In this document: one piece after another, positions 18,899-29,139 of the stretch | Position numbering within the stretch: the first letter of the stretch is position 1 | How the letters are laid out: each line of letters starts with the position of its first letter | From: a virus | DNA: 31,454 nucleotides | Virus record (IMG/VR): IMGVR_UViG_3300020469_000161 | Coordinates: 1 to 31,454 of that record | Strand: one strand, 5' to 3' | Notes under the pieces: model-generated | What the model was told of the DNA's origin: nothing | What the model saw: only the letters and a program-made list of their open reading frames with translations | The model's database searches: none | Position numbers and translations under genes: made by a program

Positions 18899-21625
18899 AT
18901 GTTTTCACAGCGTCATATTGGACCTTCAGAAGAAGAGCAAAAGAAAATGCTCGAAGATTTAGGTCTCACTAATCTAGATGAACTTGTTAGAAAAATTGTA
19001 CCAGATTCAATCTTGTATAGAGAGAAGACAACCTTACCAAAAGGTTGTGATGAGTACAAAGCATTAAATGAACTAAAGAATATTGCTCAAGCAAACAAAC
19101 CTAAACCATGTCTTATAGGACAGGGTTACTATAATACGGTAACACCATCTGTTATCAAAAGAAATGTGTTAGAAAATCCTGCATGGTATACATCTTATAC
19201 ACCATATCAGGCAGAGATATCTCAGGGAAGATTAGAATCATTATTTAATTTCCAGACTCTAGTGACAGAGTTGACTGGATTACCAATAGCAAATGCATCT
19301 CTATTAGATGAAGGCACTGCAGCAGCAGAGGCAATGACGTTAGCATATAACTCATCTAAAAGAAATACATTTTTAGTAGACAGTAGAGTATTTTTCTCTA
19401 CACTTCAAGTTTTACAGACAAGAGCAGAACCATTAGGTATTAGTATAGTAACTGTAGATTTGGATGCACCTATACCATTAGCAGAGTTTGAGGATGCCTT
19501 TGGTTTTCTGATACAGATGCCAAATAGTGAAGGTAAGATCAAAGAACCTAGTGGAATAATAAGAGTATGTGAAGTGCATAATGTTGTCAAGATTGCAGTT
19601 GTAGATCCTATGGCACAGGTGTTGATGAAACCTGTAGGAGAGATGGGATTTGATATAGCAGTTGGTAGTATGCAGAGGTTTGGTATACCTATGGGATTTG
19701 GTGGACCACATGCTGCATTCTTTGCAACAGCAGACAAATATAAAAGAAAGATTCCAGGTAGAATTGTAGGTCAATCTAAAGATAGTGAAGGTAATCCTGC
19801 ATTAAGATTAGCATTGCAGACAAGAGAGCAGCACATTCGTAGAGATAAAGCAACGAGTAATATATGTACAGCACAGGCACTACTAGCAAACATGTCTGCG
19901 TTCTATGCAATCTATCATGGACCAGAGGGACTAGAAAAAATAGCAAGAAGGATATGGTTACTACGTCAAACTCTAGTTCGTGCACTTAAATGGTGTGGTG
20001 TTACTGTAGATGATAGTGAAGGATTTGATACAGTTAGATTCAAGTCAATCAAGATGGTTGATGGATACAATGTGACTATCAAAAATGGTTGGATTACATT
20101 ATCAATTGATGAAACAACTACATTCGATACTCTTTATACTATCATCAATAGTCAAGTTATATTTGAATCTAATCAATCTACAATCATAAGTGTATGGGAT
20201 AGTTGTGTCGATGAATCATGGACTAATATACCCTTAAGAACTAAACCATGGTTACAACAAGAAGTCTTTCACAAGTATAGAAGTGAGACTAACTTGATGA
20301 GATATATTCGTGAGTTAGAGAATAAAGATTTCTCATTAGTACATGGTATGATGCCACTCGGAAGTTGTACTATGAAGTTAAATTCTGCAGCAGAACTTAC
20401 TCCTGTATCATGGGAAGAGTTTGGTAACGTACATCCTCATACACCCATGGGTCAGATCCTTGGATATGATAGAATAATTAAAGACTTATCAGAATGGTTA
20501 TGTGATATTACTGGTTTCCATTCTATGACTTTTCAACCTAACTCTGGTGCACAGGGTGAGTATGCAGGTCTATTGGCAATCAGAGACTACCATGAATCAA
20601 GAGCAGATTTTAAACGTAATGTATGTCTGATACCAGAGTCAGCACATGGTACTAACCCTGCATCAGCAGTCATGGCAGGTATGAAAGTTGTAGGTATTAA
20701 ATGTGATGGTGATGGTAATGTTGATATACACGATTTAAGAATCAAAGCATGTCTAGAAGCGAATGAACTAGCAGCATTGATGATTACATACCCATCAACA
20801 CACGGTGTATTTGAACAGAACATCAAAGAGATCTGCAGTATCGTTCATGAGTTTGGTGGACAGGTTTATATGGATGGTGCAAACTTTAATGCACAGGTAG
20901 GATTGTGTCAACCTGGAGAATTTGGTGTAGATGTATCACACTTGAACTTACATAAAACATTCTGTATACCACATGGAGGTGGAGGACCTGGGGTTGGACC
21001 TATCGGTGTAGCAGAACATCTAGCACCATTCATAGATCAGAAAGTATCATCAGCAGAACATGGTAGTGCATCTATATTACCTATTGTCTGGATGTATATA
21101 AGAATGATGGGTGAAGAAGGACTACGAAATGCAACAGAGGTAGCACTATTAAATGCAAACTGGTTAGCAAAGAAAATAGATCCTCATTTTAAGGTATTAT
21201 ATAAAGGTAAAGGTGATTGGGTAGCACATGAATGTATCTTTGATTGTCGTAATCTAGGAGTAACTGCAGAAGATATAGCAAAGAGATTGATGGACTATGG
21301 TTTTCATGCACCAACCTTGTCATGGCCTGTGTTAGGAACTATGATGGTAGAACCTACAGAGTCAGAATCACTTGATGAGTTACAAAGATTCGTAGATGCT
21401 ATGGTAAAGATTAGAAAAGAGATTGCTGAACTACCTAAGATAGTAAAGAATGCTCCACATACACAGTCAGAAGTGTGTGGTCAGTGGACTCATTCATATA
21501 CAAGAGAAGAAGCATGCTTTCCTAATCAACCTAAACAGAAATTCTGGCCTGCTGTAGGTAGGATTGATAATGTATATGGTGACAGGAACCTAGTATGTTC
21601 GTGCACTGTTGAGATAAATACTTAG
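18899..21625 (+). CDS. gcvP: Glycine dehydrogenase (decarboxylating), P-protein
   Basis: The pyridoxal-phosphate enzyme of the glycine cleavage system: it decarboxylates glycine and passes the aminomethyl group to the lipoyl arm of H-protein. At 908 residues it is a complete, single-chain P-protein (bacterial forms are about 950). The N-terminus FSQRHIGPSEEEQKKMLEDL, the GLPIANASLLDEGTAAAEAM-like segment and FGIPMGFGGPHAAFFA mark the first half; MPLGSCTMKLNSAAE, PNSGAQGEYAGL and HGTNPASA the second. The cofactor lysine is Lys686 in HLNLHKTF, followed by PHGGGGPGVGP. No frameshift is present and A-ending codons match the surrounding phage genes, so it is adapted to this genome. No T, H or L protein is in the window. 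It would need the host's partners to feed methylene-tetrahydrofolate to thymidylate and purine synthesis. Confidence 0.96.
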   Translation: MFSQRHIGPSEEEQKKMLEDLGLTNLDELVRKIVPDSILYREKTTLPKGCDEYKALNELKNIAQANKPKPCLIGQGYYNTVTPSVIKRNVLENPAWYTSYTPYQAEISQGRLESLFNFQTLVTELTGLPIANASLLDEGTAAAEAMTLAYNSSKRNTFLVDSRVFFSTLQVLQTRAEPLGISIVTVDLDAPIPLAEFEDAFGFLIQMPNSEGKIKEPSGIIRVCEVHNVVKIAVVDPMAQVLMKPVGEMGFDIAVGSMQRFGIPMGFGGPHAAFFATADKYKRKIPGRIVGQSKDSEGNPALRLALQTREQHIRRDKATSNICTAQALLANMSAFYAIYHGPEGLEKIARRIWLLRQTLVRALKWCGVTVDDSEGFDTVRFKSIKMVDGYNVTIKNGWITLSIDETTTFDTLYTIINSQVIFESNQSTIISVWDSCVDESWTNIPLRTKPWLQQEVFHKYRSETNLMRYIRELENKDFSLVHGMMPLGSCTMKLNSAAELTPVSWEEFGNVHPHTPMGQILGYDRIIKDLSEWLCDITGFHSMTFQPNSGAQGEYAGLLAIRDYHESRADFKRNVCLIPESAHGTNPASAVMAGMKVVGIKCDGDGNVDIHDLRIKACLEANELAALMITYPSTHGVFEQNIKEICSIVHEFGGQVYMDGANFNAQVGLCQPGEFGVDVSHLNLHKTFCIPHGGGGPGVGPIGVAEHLAPFIDQKVSSAEHGSASILPIVWMYIRMMGEEGLRNATEVALLNANWLAKKIDPHFKVLYKGKGDWVAHECIFDCRNLGVTAEDIAKRLMDYGFHAPTLSWPVLGTMMVEPTESESLDELQRFVDAMVKIRKEIAELPKIVKNAPHTQSEVCGQWTHSYTREEACFPNQPKQKFWPAVGRIDNVYGDRNLVCSCTVEINT
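21613..21620 (+). promoter_or_regulatory. Possible T4-late-like promoter box after gcvP
   Basis: GATAAATA differs by one base from the T4 late element TATAAATA and lies 23 nt before the next ATG, a suitable distance. It overlaps the last codons of gcvP. Tentative because the motif is short and the region is A/T-rich. Confidence 0.35.
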
Positions 21626-23957: not shown

Positions 23958-25121
23958 ATGAAAAAGTTTAGTGCTTTCCTAAACGAAGCAGAAAGATCTT
24001 TCGCTGCCAAAGAAGCAGAAAAATTAAAACTTAAACATGTAGGATATGGTAAGTATGCCGACGTATCTGGCAACGTAACTCATGTGTCTAAGGATGGGAA
24101 ACTAGTAAAAATATCAGCAGCAGATGCAGGTGGTGGTGCAGGAGCACAAACATCTGGCGAAGAACCAACAGCAGATGGCAACGGTGTAGATCAAGGCAGT
24201 ATATCAATAACCTTTGGAAGGTTTAATCCTCCTACTACTGGACATGAAAAACTTCTAGACAAAGTAGCAAGAGAGGCAAAAGCAAGTGGAGGAGAATATA
24301 GAATATACCCCTCAAGGTCGGAGGATCCTAAGAAGAATCCCCTCGACGCAGGGACTAAAGTTAAATATATGCGGAAAGCATATCCAGATCACTCGAACTC
24401 GATTATTGATAATGCTGATATGCGTACCATTTTTGATGTTCTCACAGCACTCGACTCTGATGGGTATAGCAGCGTTAATATTGTTGTGGGCGGGGATAGG
24501 GTCAGTGAGTTTAACTCATTAGCAAACAAATATAATGGTGATCTATACACCTTTGATGAAATTAAAGTAACATCAGCAGGTGATCGTGACCCAGATGGTG
24601 AAGGTGTTGAAGGTATGAGTGCATCTAAGATGAGAAAGGCAGCAGCAGATGGTGATCTTGAATCATTTAAGAAGGGTGTACCATCAGGAATCAAAGATAA
24701 AGACATACAATCTCTTTACGGAACGTTAAGAACTGCAATGAAAGTTGAAGAGGTTGACGATTTCGGTGATTGCTCTTATAATTTATTTGAGATAGCACCA
24801 AAACTAGATCCTCAAGGATTGCGTGAAGCATACTTTGATGGAGAATTATTTAAAGAGGGCACATTCGTTGAAAACAGCAACACAGGGATCATTTCTAAGA
24901 TTGTTAGTCGGGGTAGCAATCACGTCATCTCTATTGATGAGCGTGATAATATATTTCGCTCTTGGTTAAGGGATTTAACTGAGAAAAATAATATAACATT
25001 CTTCACTTATAAACCTGCGGGTGAGTGGGGAACGGATGAACTTACCAACTATATGAAGAAGATGACACCTGGTGAGTTTGTTAAGAAGATAAATAAAAAG
25101 GACAAAGTAGCGACAACTTAA
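23958..25121 (+). CDS. Cytidylyltransferase-like protein with capsid-targeting-like N-terminus
   Basis: A 387-residue protein. It opens with MKKFSAFLNEAERS, very like the T4 internal-protein leader MKTYQEFIAEA, which directs proteins into the capsid and is cut by gp21 after an L/I-x-E site; here LNE precedes A. Residues about 80-260 form a nucleotidyltransferase domain: ITFGRFNPPTTGHEKLLDKV carries the (H/T)xGH motif with His96, and EGMSASKMRKAA fits the downstream S-x-S-x-x-R/K element. Such enzymes join a nucleotide to a phosphate (for example NMN or CMP-type transfers). The C-terminal part (GTFVENSNTGIISKIVSRGS, ISIDERDNIFRSWLRDL) is a small barrel-like module I have seen in other marine phage proteins. 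The substrate is unknown. Confidence 0.7.
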   Translation: MKKFSAFLNEAERSFAAKEAEKLKLKHVGYGKYADVSGNVTHVSKDGKLVKISAADAGGGAGAQTSGEEPTADGNGVDQGSISITFGRFNPPTTGHEKLLDKVAREAKASGGEYRIYPSRSEDPKKNPLDAGTKVKYMRKAYPDHSNSIIDNADMRTIFDVLTALDSDGYSSVNIVVGGDRVSEFNSLANKYNGDLYTFDEIKVTSAGDRDPDGEGVEGMSASKMRKAAADGDLESFKKGVPSGIKDKDIQSLYGTLRTAMKVEEVDDFGDCSYNLFEIAPKLDPQGLREAYFDGELFKEGTFVENSNTGIISKIVSRGSNHVISIDERDNIFRSWLRDLTEKNNITFFTYKPAGEWGTDELTNYMKKMTPGEFVKKINKKDKVATT

Positions 25122-25123
25122 CA

Positions 25124-25738
25124 ATGTACGACGACAAACTACCCGATATGTCCTCTGCATACGCAGAGATACAGGAAAAAATGAAGAAGAAACTTGACGC
25201 TGTAGGCAAGGAAGACGGTGACGTTGATAATGATGGTGATAAGGATTCATCAGATTCTTATCTTGCTAATCGTAGAAAGGTTATAGGTTCTAAACTAAAG
25301 AAAGAACATCATCAGAAAGATGAGAACGGTAAAGTTATTGAGCATGATGGAGAAGATCTTGATGAAGCAATGGTCGTTACTAATGCTGATAAGAAAGGTA
25401 ATACACCTGCATACCAGAACTTCAAAAAAGGTATGAAGTCTAAGACAACTGGTAAACCTATGTACAAGGCAGCAGATCATATGAAGGAAGAAGAGATTCA
25501 TCCTGATGATAATGCACTATCACCAGAAGAATTAGAGAAGGTAGCACAACTTTCTAGAGACTGGGATGCCAAGATGGAAGAAGGATATGGTGGCAAACCT
25601 ATGATGAGTAAGGGTGGAGAAGTAAAACCACCAAGAACTGCAAAGGGTGCTATGGCATATGATGGTCCTAACAAGGCAGCATCAGAAGCAAGAGATAGAC
25701 TAGTTGCAAAAACAAAAGCAATGAGAGAGAAAAAATGA
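25124..25738 (+). CDS. Highly charged protein with EF-hand-like loop
   Basis: A 204-residue, Lys/Asp/Glu-rich protein without membrane segments. Residues about 31-50 (DGDVDNDGDKDSSDSYLANR) form a D-x-D-x-D-G-D loop like the calcium-binding loops of EF-hands and dockerins, followed by RRKVIGSKLKKE. The rest is low-complexity (EEIHPDDNALSPEELEKVAQ; MREKK end). Proteins like this are common near the structural genes of marine T4-like phages and could be internal head or scaffold-like proteins, but that is inference. It starts 2 nt after its neighbour and shares ATGA with the next gene. Function unknown. Confidence 0.65.
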   Translation: MYDDKLPDMSSAYAEIQEKMKKKLDAVGKEDGDVDNDGDKDSSDSYLANRRKVIGSKLKKEHHQKDENGKVIEHDGEDLDEAMVVTNADKKGNTPAYQNFKKGMKSKTTGKPMYKAADHMKEEEIHPDDNALSPEELEKVAQLSRDWDAKMEEGYGGKPMMSKGGEVKPPRTAKGAMAYDGPNKAASEARDRLVAKTKAMREKK

Positions 25739-25908
25739 AATCCTTTAAACAGTTTTCAGAAAACTATAGGGCAATGAGAAATCCTAAAGAGGATAAACCA
25801 GAGTCAGAAATGTCCTATGATGAAAAAAGAAAGAAGAGAATGAATGATCCTAAGAAAGGAATCAACTCTCCTGCATTTAAGAAGTTCATGGCAGACCGAG
25901 GAATGTAA
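25735..25908 (+). CDS. 57-residue basic protein with capsid-targeting-like start
   Basis: This small protein starts MKSFKQFSENYRAMRNPKED and continues with a Lys-rich tail (YDEKRKKRMNDPKKG). The MK-x-F-x-x-F-x-E beginning repeats that of the cytidylyltransferase-like protein and of T4 internal proteins. The high positive charge is consistent with DNA binding inside the head. It overlaps its upstream neighbour by 4 nt and the next start by 1 nt. It was found by reading the gap between larger genes; its function is unknown. Confidence 0.6.
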   Translation: MKSFKQFSENYRAMRNPKEDKPESEMSYDEKRKKRMNDPKKGINSPAFKKFMADRGM

Positions 25909-27113
25909 TGTTACTATCATTTAAAGCACTTAATGAAAAAAAGAAAACTAATGTCCTGATCAATCCTACAAAAAAGGATTTGCAGGAGAAGAATCATGGT
26001 GAAGACTGTGATTGTCCTAAGTGTGAAAAGAAACGTAGAAGTGAAGACGTCAATGATGGTCCTGATATAGCAACTGAAGAAACTTGTGGTAAAGGTGAAT
26101 ACTACTGCCATGATGATATGAAGTGTAAACCTATGCCTAAAGGTATGACAGTAGGAGCAGATGGTATGCTCGTCAAAGAAGCAAAGTATGAAGCAGGTGC
26201 ATCAAATTATGGTAAGATGTCTATCAGAAATAAAAGAGCAGTGGGATATGGTGGTAATGCTGCACCTCCAGAGGAGAGAAGGAAGGCACATGATGAGAGA
26301 ATGAAGAAGCATAAAAAAGAAGATGCAGAAGTATACTGGTCAAGTAAAGCATTAGATCAGTTAGATGAAATAACTGCAAAAGACAGAATGAAAAGAGACG
26401 CAGGTGCTATTGCTAAAAAGAAAATGCGTAACAAGGAGCACAATAAGTATGTTAATTTCCTAGACGTAGATGAAAGCAATATACATAGTTTTAACCAGTT
26501 CATCCAAAATAACAAACCGTATGACAGTCAAAAAGAAGTTTCAGAAGAAGGCGATAAAAAGAGGAAAGTTGAAACTTCACTGTTAACATTTGGGGAGTGT
26601 TGGAAGACACATAAGAAAGTAGGCATGAAAATGAAGGGTGGTAAACTCGTCAATGATTGTCGTCCAAAAACAGCGAACGAAGAAATTGATAGACCATACA
26701 CAGGACCTGACAAGAAAGACAGAGCAGTCATCAAGAAGATGGATAATAAAAAGTTTGCTTCTAAACTAGCAGACTATGAAAAGAACATGGATCCTAAGAA
26801 GCGTCAGGCACTTAAGGATAAAGCAACTAAGGGTATGAAGTTTACACATGAATCAAAAGATGCTGCACTTGACTTTGTGAAAGCAAAGTATAAAGGACAG
26901 ATAATGAGAAAGGGTAGCAACCAACCTAAGAAAGTTAGGGGTGCTAAGTCTACTGTGGGAACTAACAAGTATAAAGATGCTGCAGATAAAAAGAAAGAGA
27001 CTGCTGCTGATGCTAAGAAGAGAGGGTTCAAAGACTCTAAATCTTACATTGAAACTATGGCAAGATATGGTGGAAAAAGCAACTATGACAAGGGTAAAGG
27101 ATTAGGTACTTAA
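25908..27113 (+). CDS. Large basic modular protein with Cys motifs, unknown function
   Basis: A 401-residue protein rich in Lys. It starts MLLSFKALNEKKKT, again resembling a capsid-targeting leader (F-x-x-L-N-E). Cys clusters occur at EDCDCPKCEKKRR (C-x-C-x-x-C) and CGKGEYYCHDDMKCKPMPKG, which may bind metal; a third motif, GMKMKGGKLVNDCRPK, is a short Gly/Lys loop ending in Cys seen in other marine phage proteins. An internal SFNQFIQNN echoes the leader motif. The remaining length is charged helices and basic low-complexity (YKDAADKKKETAADAKKRG). It is probably a virion or DNA-associated protein; I do not recognise a family. The gene ends 36 nt before the next start, a gap holding a weak hairpin (27123-27137). 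Confidence 0.6.
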   Translation: MLLSFKALNEKKKTNVLINPTKKDLQEKNHGEDCDCPKCEKKRRSEDVNDGPDIATEETCGKGEYYCHDDMKCKPMPKGMTVGADGMLVKEAKYEAGASNYGKMSIRNKRAVGYGGNAAPPEERRKAHDERMKKHKKEDAEVYWSSKALDQLDEITAKDRMKRDAGAIAKKKMRNKEHNKYVNFLDVDESNIHSFNQFIQNNKPYDSQKEVSEEGDKKRKVETSLLTFGECWKTHKKVGMKMKGGKLVNDCRPKTANEEIDRPYTGPDKKDRAVIKKMDNKKFASKLADYEKNMDPKKRQALKDKATKGMKFTHESKDAALDFVKAKYKGQIMRKGSNQPKKVRGAKSTVGTNKYKDAADKKKETAADAKKRGFKDSKSYIETMARYGGKSNYDKGKGLGT

Positions 27114-28243: not shown

Positions 28244-28606
28244 ATGAAATTTGACGAACTGAATGAGTCTAACTACATTCTGTTCGCCATAAAACATTAT
28301 GAAAATCCTCATTGTGTTACACGAGAGGATTTCGATGAAGATGTGAAACGCTTCAAATATTTGAAACGTTTATTGAAAAGATATTTAAGAGGGGGTCCTT
28401 TAAGGATCCCTTTAATCTTAAATCACCTCATCATACTTTATAATGTCTTTGGCGAAGCAGCAACACCATTGCTCTTTTTTAAATTTGAGAGAGAATATTG
28501 GTGCTTACTTAAGACTCTACTACTTTATTTGAATAAATACCCAGTAGGGATGATGCCAGAACTTGACATTGATCCTACACTTCAAGAAGAACTAGACAAG
28601 ATCTAA
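28244..28606 (+). CDS. Conserved marine-phage protein, unknown function
   Basis: A 120-residue protein beginning MKFDELNESNYILFAIKHYE. The stretch VKRFKYLKRLLKRYLRGG, LILNHLIILYNVFGEAATPL and EYWCLLKTLLLYLNKYP is helical and rich in Leu and Tyr; I recall a very similar protein in many T4-like marine phages, without known role. The EAATPLLFFK segment is hydrophobic but too short for a confident membrane span. It shares one base with the next start. The function is unknown. Confidence 0.7.
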   Translation: MKFDELNESNYILFAIKHYENPHCVTREDFDEDVKRFKYLKRLLKRYLRGGPLRIPLILNHLIILYNVFGEAATPLLFFKFEREYWCLLKTLLLYLNKYPVGMMPELDIDPTLQEELDKI

Positions 28607-29139
28607 TGAACGAAGAAATGATGACAGCAGGAACAGGCGGTTTCAGTGGCAGTGCTGCTGCAACTGGTCCCAATGCGGGGTATGATCCTGTCATAAAGTT
28701 CAGAAAGAAAATTAAAAAGAAAAAAATACAAAAAGAATCCAGAGAAAATCCGACAGAACCATCCAAACTATACCAATATAAGGTTACTATACCGACAGTT
28801 GGAGAAACTATTATCTATGCTAATAGTCCTGCTGAACTTAAAATGAAACTTCGCATGTCTATCATGCCACAGTACAGAAATGACATAAGCATAGAACGTA
28901 TACTTCCCGCCATGGCAGGTAAGTTCTTTTACGACAAGAGAATGAAGCACATGAGGAACGTTCAAGAAGAGAACGGTGGCGATCAGCAGATGAAGGCAAA
29001 GCAAGCACAGATGAAGATCGCTATTGAGAAGAAGAAGGTTCAAATGAAGAAGCAAGAGTTAGCAAAGCAACTCCAAATGAAGACTCAACAGTTAAAGAAA
29101 CAGGCAAGGGCAGGGGCAGAACAAGACGCAACAAGGTAA
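28606..29139 (+). CDS. Coiled-coil protein with phage Gly/Ala-rich N-terminus
   Basis: A 177-residue protein. The start (TAGTGGFSGSAAATGPNAGY followed by DPVIKFRKK) is a Gly/Ala motif that recurs at the N-termini of several T4-like marine phage proteins. A central domain (YQYKVTIPTVGETIIYANSP, AELKMKLRMSIMPQYRNDI) precedes a long Lys/Gln helix (about 125-170), probably a coiled coil (MKIAIEKKKVQMKKQELAKQ). The protein is strongly basic. It overlaps both neighbours by 1 nt. No enzyme motif is seen; a virion or DNA-associated role is possible. Confidence 0.65.
   Translation: MNEEMMTAGTGGFSGSAAATGPNAGYDPVIKFRKKIKKKKIQKESRENPTEPSKLYQYKVTIPTVGETIIYANSPAELKMKLRMSIMPQYRNDISIERILPAMAGKFFYDKRMKHMRNVQEENGGDQQMKAKQAQMKIAIEKKKVQMKKQELAKQLQMKTQQLKKQARAGAEQDATR

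Follow-up and report, generated by a model that had tools for sequence, protein, structure and literature searches.

Leader-like starts of the three ORFs

The window, a virus contig of 31,454 bases that carries T4-like cyanophage genes, raises the question of whether a block of adjacent proteins is addressed to the virus head by a short N-terminal peptide. Three open reading frames (ORFs) are at issue: the ORF at 23958 encodes 387 residues starting MKKFSAFLNEA, that at 25735 encodes 57 residues starting MKSFKQFSEN, and that at 25908 encodes 401 residues starting MLLSFKALNEK. The block adjoins the head proteins phrog_613 and phrog_696. The initial annotation took the three starts to be alike; the peptides and start codons are all as it gave them, but the likeness is unequal. 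The classical motif, defined as aromatic-x-x-aromatic-[ILMVF]-x-E at most four codons from a start, is found among all ORFs of the window at 23958 only. Within the N-terminal ten or so residues, aromatics at positions 4 and 7 are present in the 23958 and 25735 products and absent from that of 25908 (one Phe only); L/I-x-E at positions 8-10 is present in the 23958 and 25908 products (L8-N9-E10 in both) and missing from that of 25735 (S8-E9). The description of the latter two proteins as basic is borne out (K+R 16 versus D+E 9 in the 57-residue protein, 96 versus 63 in the 401-residue protein). The window, a 31 kb fragment, contains neither gp21 nor gp23, and the mature bodies of the three proteins show no homology to T4 IPI-III, matching PF01467, phrog_24078 and phrog_1784 instead.

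Domain layout of the cytidylyltransferase

The 23958 product is a member of the cytidylyltransferase-like superfamily PF01467, both by profile (E 1.4e-7, 32.2 bits against a cut-off of 21) and by fold (Foldseek: CoaD/PPAT, E 5e-5; NadD, E 2e-4). It matches phrog_395 at E 7e-123, a PDB sequence search with it gave no match, and its type is present in 533 phage records, mostly from cyanophages. The ORF is laid out as follows.

23958-23990, + strand: capsid-targeting-like leader MKKFSAFLNEA, with a predicted prohead-protease cut after E10 (FLxEA as in the T4 gp23 site and cyanophage major capsid proteins)
23991-24128, + strand: portable N-terminal module, residues 12-57, LxLxxxGxGxYxDxxGxxxxxxxxGKL (module HMM, beta domain in the model)
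24129-24191, + strand: disordered linker (pLDDT <50, residues 59-75)
24192-24767, + strand: nucleotidylyltransferase domain (PF01467, phrog_395, Foldseek)
24768-25121, + strand: C-terminal region with a small beta domain (strands at residues 303-343) and stop

The enzyme shares its fold and the G-R-F-N-P-P-T-T-G-H motif with NMNAT/PPAT-type nucleotidylyltransferases (PF01467) but adds the leader, the beta module and the C-terminal domain. Residues 12-57 form a separate compact beta domain (pLDDT about 90). The module HMM hits 172 fetched ORFs, nearly all of them cytidylyltransferases, and in 168 the module lies at residues 10-19. It is also fused to the kinase and 'Cas9-like' proteins of S-CREM2; leader and module stand alone in a 183-residue protein of S-CRM01, and the leader-plus-module unit is doubled in S-CREM2 gp14 and in one contig protein (L036). 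These fusions suggest that the leader is portable.

Comparison with the T4 system

In T4 IPIII, residues 4 and 7 are needed for targeting and residues 8 and 10 for processing, and the T4 gp21 protease cuts after L/I-x-E (PMC9026906). All of these critical positions are matched in the 23958 leader (F4, F7, L8 and E10). Their conservation is seen in an unbiased set of 79 relatives of the cytidylyltransferase, collected with peptides from outside the leader: K2, F4, F7, L8, E10 and A11 are kept in 79/79; the codons differ among relatives at F4, F7 and A11 and are constant at L8 and E10. Positions 3, 5, 6 and 9 are variable in a set picked partly by the leader. The resemblance to the capsid-targeting peptide (CTS) of T4 IPII and IPIII, MKTYQEFIAEA, extends to length, N-terminal place, the aromatics at 4 and 7, I/L-x-E at 8-10 and A11, and in the wider set of carriers T/S is favoured at position 3 and Q/E at position 6. 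The cyanophage-type leader differs in being carried by enzymes, often with the conserved beta module next to it, whereas the T4 internal proteins are small, basic and of unrelated body; tandem and internal leader copies occur in the present set.

The predicted cut site also has a counterpart in the capsid proteins. In T4 gp23, the gp21 cut site is GSFLTE|A, with its Glu at residue 65 (position checked). In capsid proteins of cyanophages the sequences are SGSFLAEA and GLLTEA, which are FLxEA or a close variant. FLTEA is found identically in the leader of the S-CREM2 cytidylyltransferase, and the window has FLNEA; the gp23 propeptide, however, is 65 residues long, not 10 as in the leader. T4 Alt, an injected ADP-ribosyltransferase, is likewise a packaged enzyme and is processed by the head protease (PMC9026906); both the enzyme and the propeptide are different. 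When T4 was scanned with the leader pattern (F or Y allowed at position 4), only IPII, IPIII and gp61.1 matched, and the reversed pattern matched nothing. The gp61.1 product (AF158101 18966-19130, 54 residues, hypothetical) has a CTS-like start, MKTFKEFIKED, and is a candidate T4 internal protein. In the open-licence papers searched, capsid targeting and cyanophages are linked nowhere beyond a passing mention.

Virion proteomes

Published mass spectrometry places orthologues of the cytidylyltransferase in purified virions of S-SM1 (T4-GC190), S-SCSM1 (annotated NMNAT, gp91) and S-CREM2 (gp154). Virion presence of this type of carrier is thus documented through orthologues in three other phages, not in the window's phage itself. 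For S-CREM2, 219 proteins were reconstructed and compared with the 52 detected by mass spectrometry. The leader core lies within the first 30 residues of 7/52 detected and 1/167 undetected proteins (Fisher P 2e-4); the seven are gp6, gp12, gp13, gp14, gp122, gp136 and gp154, the match in the baseplate protein gp122 being probably due to chance. The strict T4-derived form is the fairer test, because the S-CREM2 N-termini had already been viewed when the looser regular expressions were drawn up; it is found in 3/52 detected and 0/167 undetected proteins (P 0.013), and 3 in 219 proteins compares with 0.002 expected from shuffling. The leader marks all four S-CREM2 virion enzymes other than tail-associated lysins: the SAM lyase (gp6; PF23780, E 2e-19), the kinase-like gp14, the 'Cas9-like' gp12 and the cytidylyltransferase. 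The label of gp12 is its authors' term, and Pfam gives it no support. As packaged cargo, the virion-detected SAM lyase (OR473000 3837-5081, leader MKDFDSFLEE) could deplete SAM once inside the cell.

S-SCSM1 taken alone shows no enrichment (leader in 1/~45 virion proteins versus 1/~237 others), and its gp30 has the leader (MKTFKQFMSES) and no virion-protein label. The neighbours of its cytidylyltransferase, gp89, 90, 92, 93, 95 and 97, are all labelled virion proteins. A virion-labelled protein of 69 residues (MK867354 91626-91835) has a leader-like RTFKEFLEYIE at its C terminus. S-CREM1 was considered as a third mass spectrometry test and set aside, the part of its record examined having no virion labels; its supposed virion lipase is a 1404-residue product beside baseplate genes.

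These detections might instead reflect carry-over of abundant proteins, the leader being part of the folded enzyme or an aid to translation or stability. The S-CREM2 authors themselves say that contamination is not excludable and allow for carry-over through CsCl; the S-SCSM1 virion-labelled proteins include RegA, and the NMNAT of S-CBWM1, a distant phage, is reported from virions and is leaderless. We nevertheless regard this explanation as improbable: the leader is rare in the undetected S-CREM2 proteins, in the model of the 23958 enzyme it lies apart from the folded domains and has low confidence, the jumbo-phage homologues do without it, and among the matches listed it is common to about 50 unrelated families. 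Packaging of the cytidylyltransferase by a T4-type leader, as the initial annotation had proposed, is strongly supported by the conservation of the functional CTS positions, by the orthologues in three virions and by the association with virion proteins in S-CREM2.

Carriers in other viruses

In viral contigs the leader pattern matches at least 120 stretches, compared with 28 in the whole collection for a control pattern with its letters permuted; among the matches listed, 102/123 leader stretches and 1/23 control stretches look like gene starts. Those listed include about 60 cytidylyltransferases and, after a k-mer filter, 57 non-redundant other bodies that represent about 50 unrelated proteins (Pfam matches to GNAT, DPBB, WYL_2, DUF192, DUF5661 and others). 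Within these 57 listed bodies the T4-like residues are favoured at the two positions that the pattern leaves free, with S/T at position 3 in 46/57 (background 14%, P 5e-30) and Q/E at position 6 in 44/57 (background 11%, P 9e-32), P values that are optimistic given residual homology among the bodies. Both the S77 protease and Gp23 are present in S-CREM2, S-SM1, S-SCSM1 and Syn9. They co-occur in 7/14 long leader contigs, among them each of the four that exceed 120 kb, and in 2/8 controls, which is moderate support only, as the contigs are fragments.

The leader is not universal among homologues. That of the Pelagibacter phage HTVC008M has only MKTLKELLRKK, that of S-RSM4 is leaderless, and the jumbo-phage enzymes (121Q, CBB, XbC2) have neither leader nor module and begin at the catalytic domain. 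The leaderless CBB_73 is absent from the list of the CBB virion proteome.

Two further observations concern the contigs. Five different leader-bearing ORFs are clustered on one of them (L122 5915-9422), possibly a cargo operon. In three others (L180, L035 3736-4149 and L068 1211-1858) the leader is followed by HGT...GF...YTST, reminiscent of ADP-ribosyltransferases (Pfam PARP E 0.13; AlphaFold model pLDDT 49).

Neighbours of the cytidylyltransferase

The features downstream of the enzyme are as follows.

25124-25738, + strand: charged protein of 204 residues, leaderless (modules common to virion proteins)
25735-25908, + strand: basic protein of 57 residues with the degenerate leader MKSFKQFSEN (starts of relatives)
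25908-27113, + strand: Lys-rich protein of 401 residues, phrog_1784, start MLLSFKALNEK (relatives; Cys module shared with the virion protein S-SCSM1 gp29)
26448-26474, + strand: internal leader-like YVNFLDVDE of the 401-residue protein (conserved, 24 places in fetched relatives)
26577-26606, + strand: internal LLTFGECWKT of the 401-residue protein (LLTFGQFxE in relatives and other proteins, for example TFGQFLAEM)

Relatives of the 57-residue protein are of two kinds: some start MKSFKQ[FY](C)SENYRAMRN, and in others the same body lies within a larger fusion protein. The leader-like start was therefore acquired when the larger gene split. The window copy has both aromatics and no L/I-x-E, and thus no good cleavage site (relatives: MKSFKQYCSEN); it is a degenerate copy of the leader. 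Relatives of the 401-residue protein start MLSFK[EA]L[SQTN]EKK, retaining the first Phe and L-x-E but not the second aromatic. A similar F-x-x-L-x-E start, MKFDELNESN, is found in the DUF7207 protein at 28244, whose orthologues are undetected in S-CREM2 or S-SCSM1 virions; for this reason the start of the 401-residue protein is weak evidence by itself, and F-x-x-L-x-E was rejected as an alternative leader class, being not specific.

The likeness of the three proteins could then be partly chance, with a true leader on the cytidylyltransferase only. The restriction of the classical motif to 23958 within the window, and the presence of a motif like that of 25908 in a family undetected in virions, speak for this. 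We think it rather unlikely, as relatives conserve the start peptides of both 25735 and 25908 and the splitting of the 25735 gene was accompanied by the gain of MKSFKQ[FY]. Of the earlier suggestion that the two basic proteins are packaged there remains, for the 57-residue protein, a conserved but degenerate leader; the 401-residue protein has a different conserved motif, and its packaging is suggested mainly by modules common to virion proteins detected by mass spectrometry. The 204-residue protein is 68% identical over 44 residues to S-SCSM1 gp89 and 58% over 53 residues to gp92, both virion-labelled. From such shared modules, and not from a classical leader, the 401- and 204-residue proteins (25908 and 25124) are probably internal head proteins. 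Within 25124-25738, the DVDNDGDKDSSDSYL stretch resembles an EF-hand/dockerin-type calcium loop and is common to the virion protein S-SCSM1 gp92.

Proposed role of the leader

Taken over all the evidence, we consider it likely that the N-terminal 10-11 residues of the 23958 enzyme are a CTS of the T4 kind, with packaging, cleavage and delivery as follows. During head assembly the aromatics at 4 and 7 would dock the enzyme to the prohead core, as shown for T4 IPIII. A gp21-type (S77) protease would then cut after E10 in FLxE|A, a form of its own site in the major capsid protein. The enzyme so released, still bearing the small beta module, would stay inside the head alongside the DNA and enter the cell at infection, where its NMNAT/cytidylyltransferase-like activity could act in the host ahead of phage gene expression. 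The proteins of the block would in that case be injected effectors.

Alternatively, the leader may target the prohead core while its carriers are assembly factors or structural components of that core, not injected effectors. Among the proteins with leader or module, many are rich in Lys and have few known domains, like the T4 core proteins, and the block lies beside the head proteins phrog_613 and phrog_696. Several carriers, however, are enzymes without an obvious assembly role (the SAM lyase of PF23780, kinase-like, GNAT and DPBB proteins), and we hold this alternative to be doubtful. Delivery to the host remains our preferred reading, and we lean, with some reserve, towards a wider one, in which MK[ST]FxxF[IL]xEA, often with the adaptor module of 45 residues, serves as a zip code that sends dozens of unrelated proteins to the heads of T4-like marine viruses, from which they would pass into the host. 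Besides many proteins without a known function, those so addressed would comprise a SAM lyase, kinases, GNATs and nucleotidylyltransferases. Cyanophage virion proteomes keep yielding enzymes that may be cargo or contaminants, and their authors say that they cannot tell which; a leader recognisable in the sequence would offer a way to decide, and would make the cargo of uncultured marine T4-like viruses predictable from contigs. If true, the sequence would show which effectors uncultured viruses inject, and in marine viruses enzymes such as SAM lyases, kinases and NMNAT-like proteins would reach the host at time zero, ahead of phage expression.

Other features of the window

The N-terminus of the phrog_696 head protein (28606-29136) resembles the stretch of the cyanophage major capsid protein that directly follows the presumed cut; it is 60% identical over 30 residues to S-CREM2 gp160 and matches the major capsid protein at E 9e-6. 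An ORF of 908 residues (18899-21625) reads as glycine dehydrogenase (gcvP), which is reported among 16 cyanophages in P-HM1 and P-HM2 only (Sullivan 2010).
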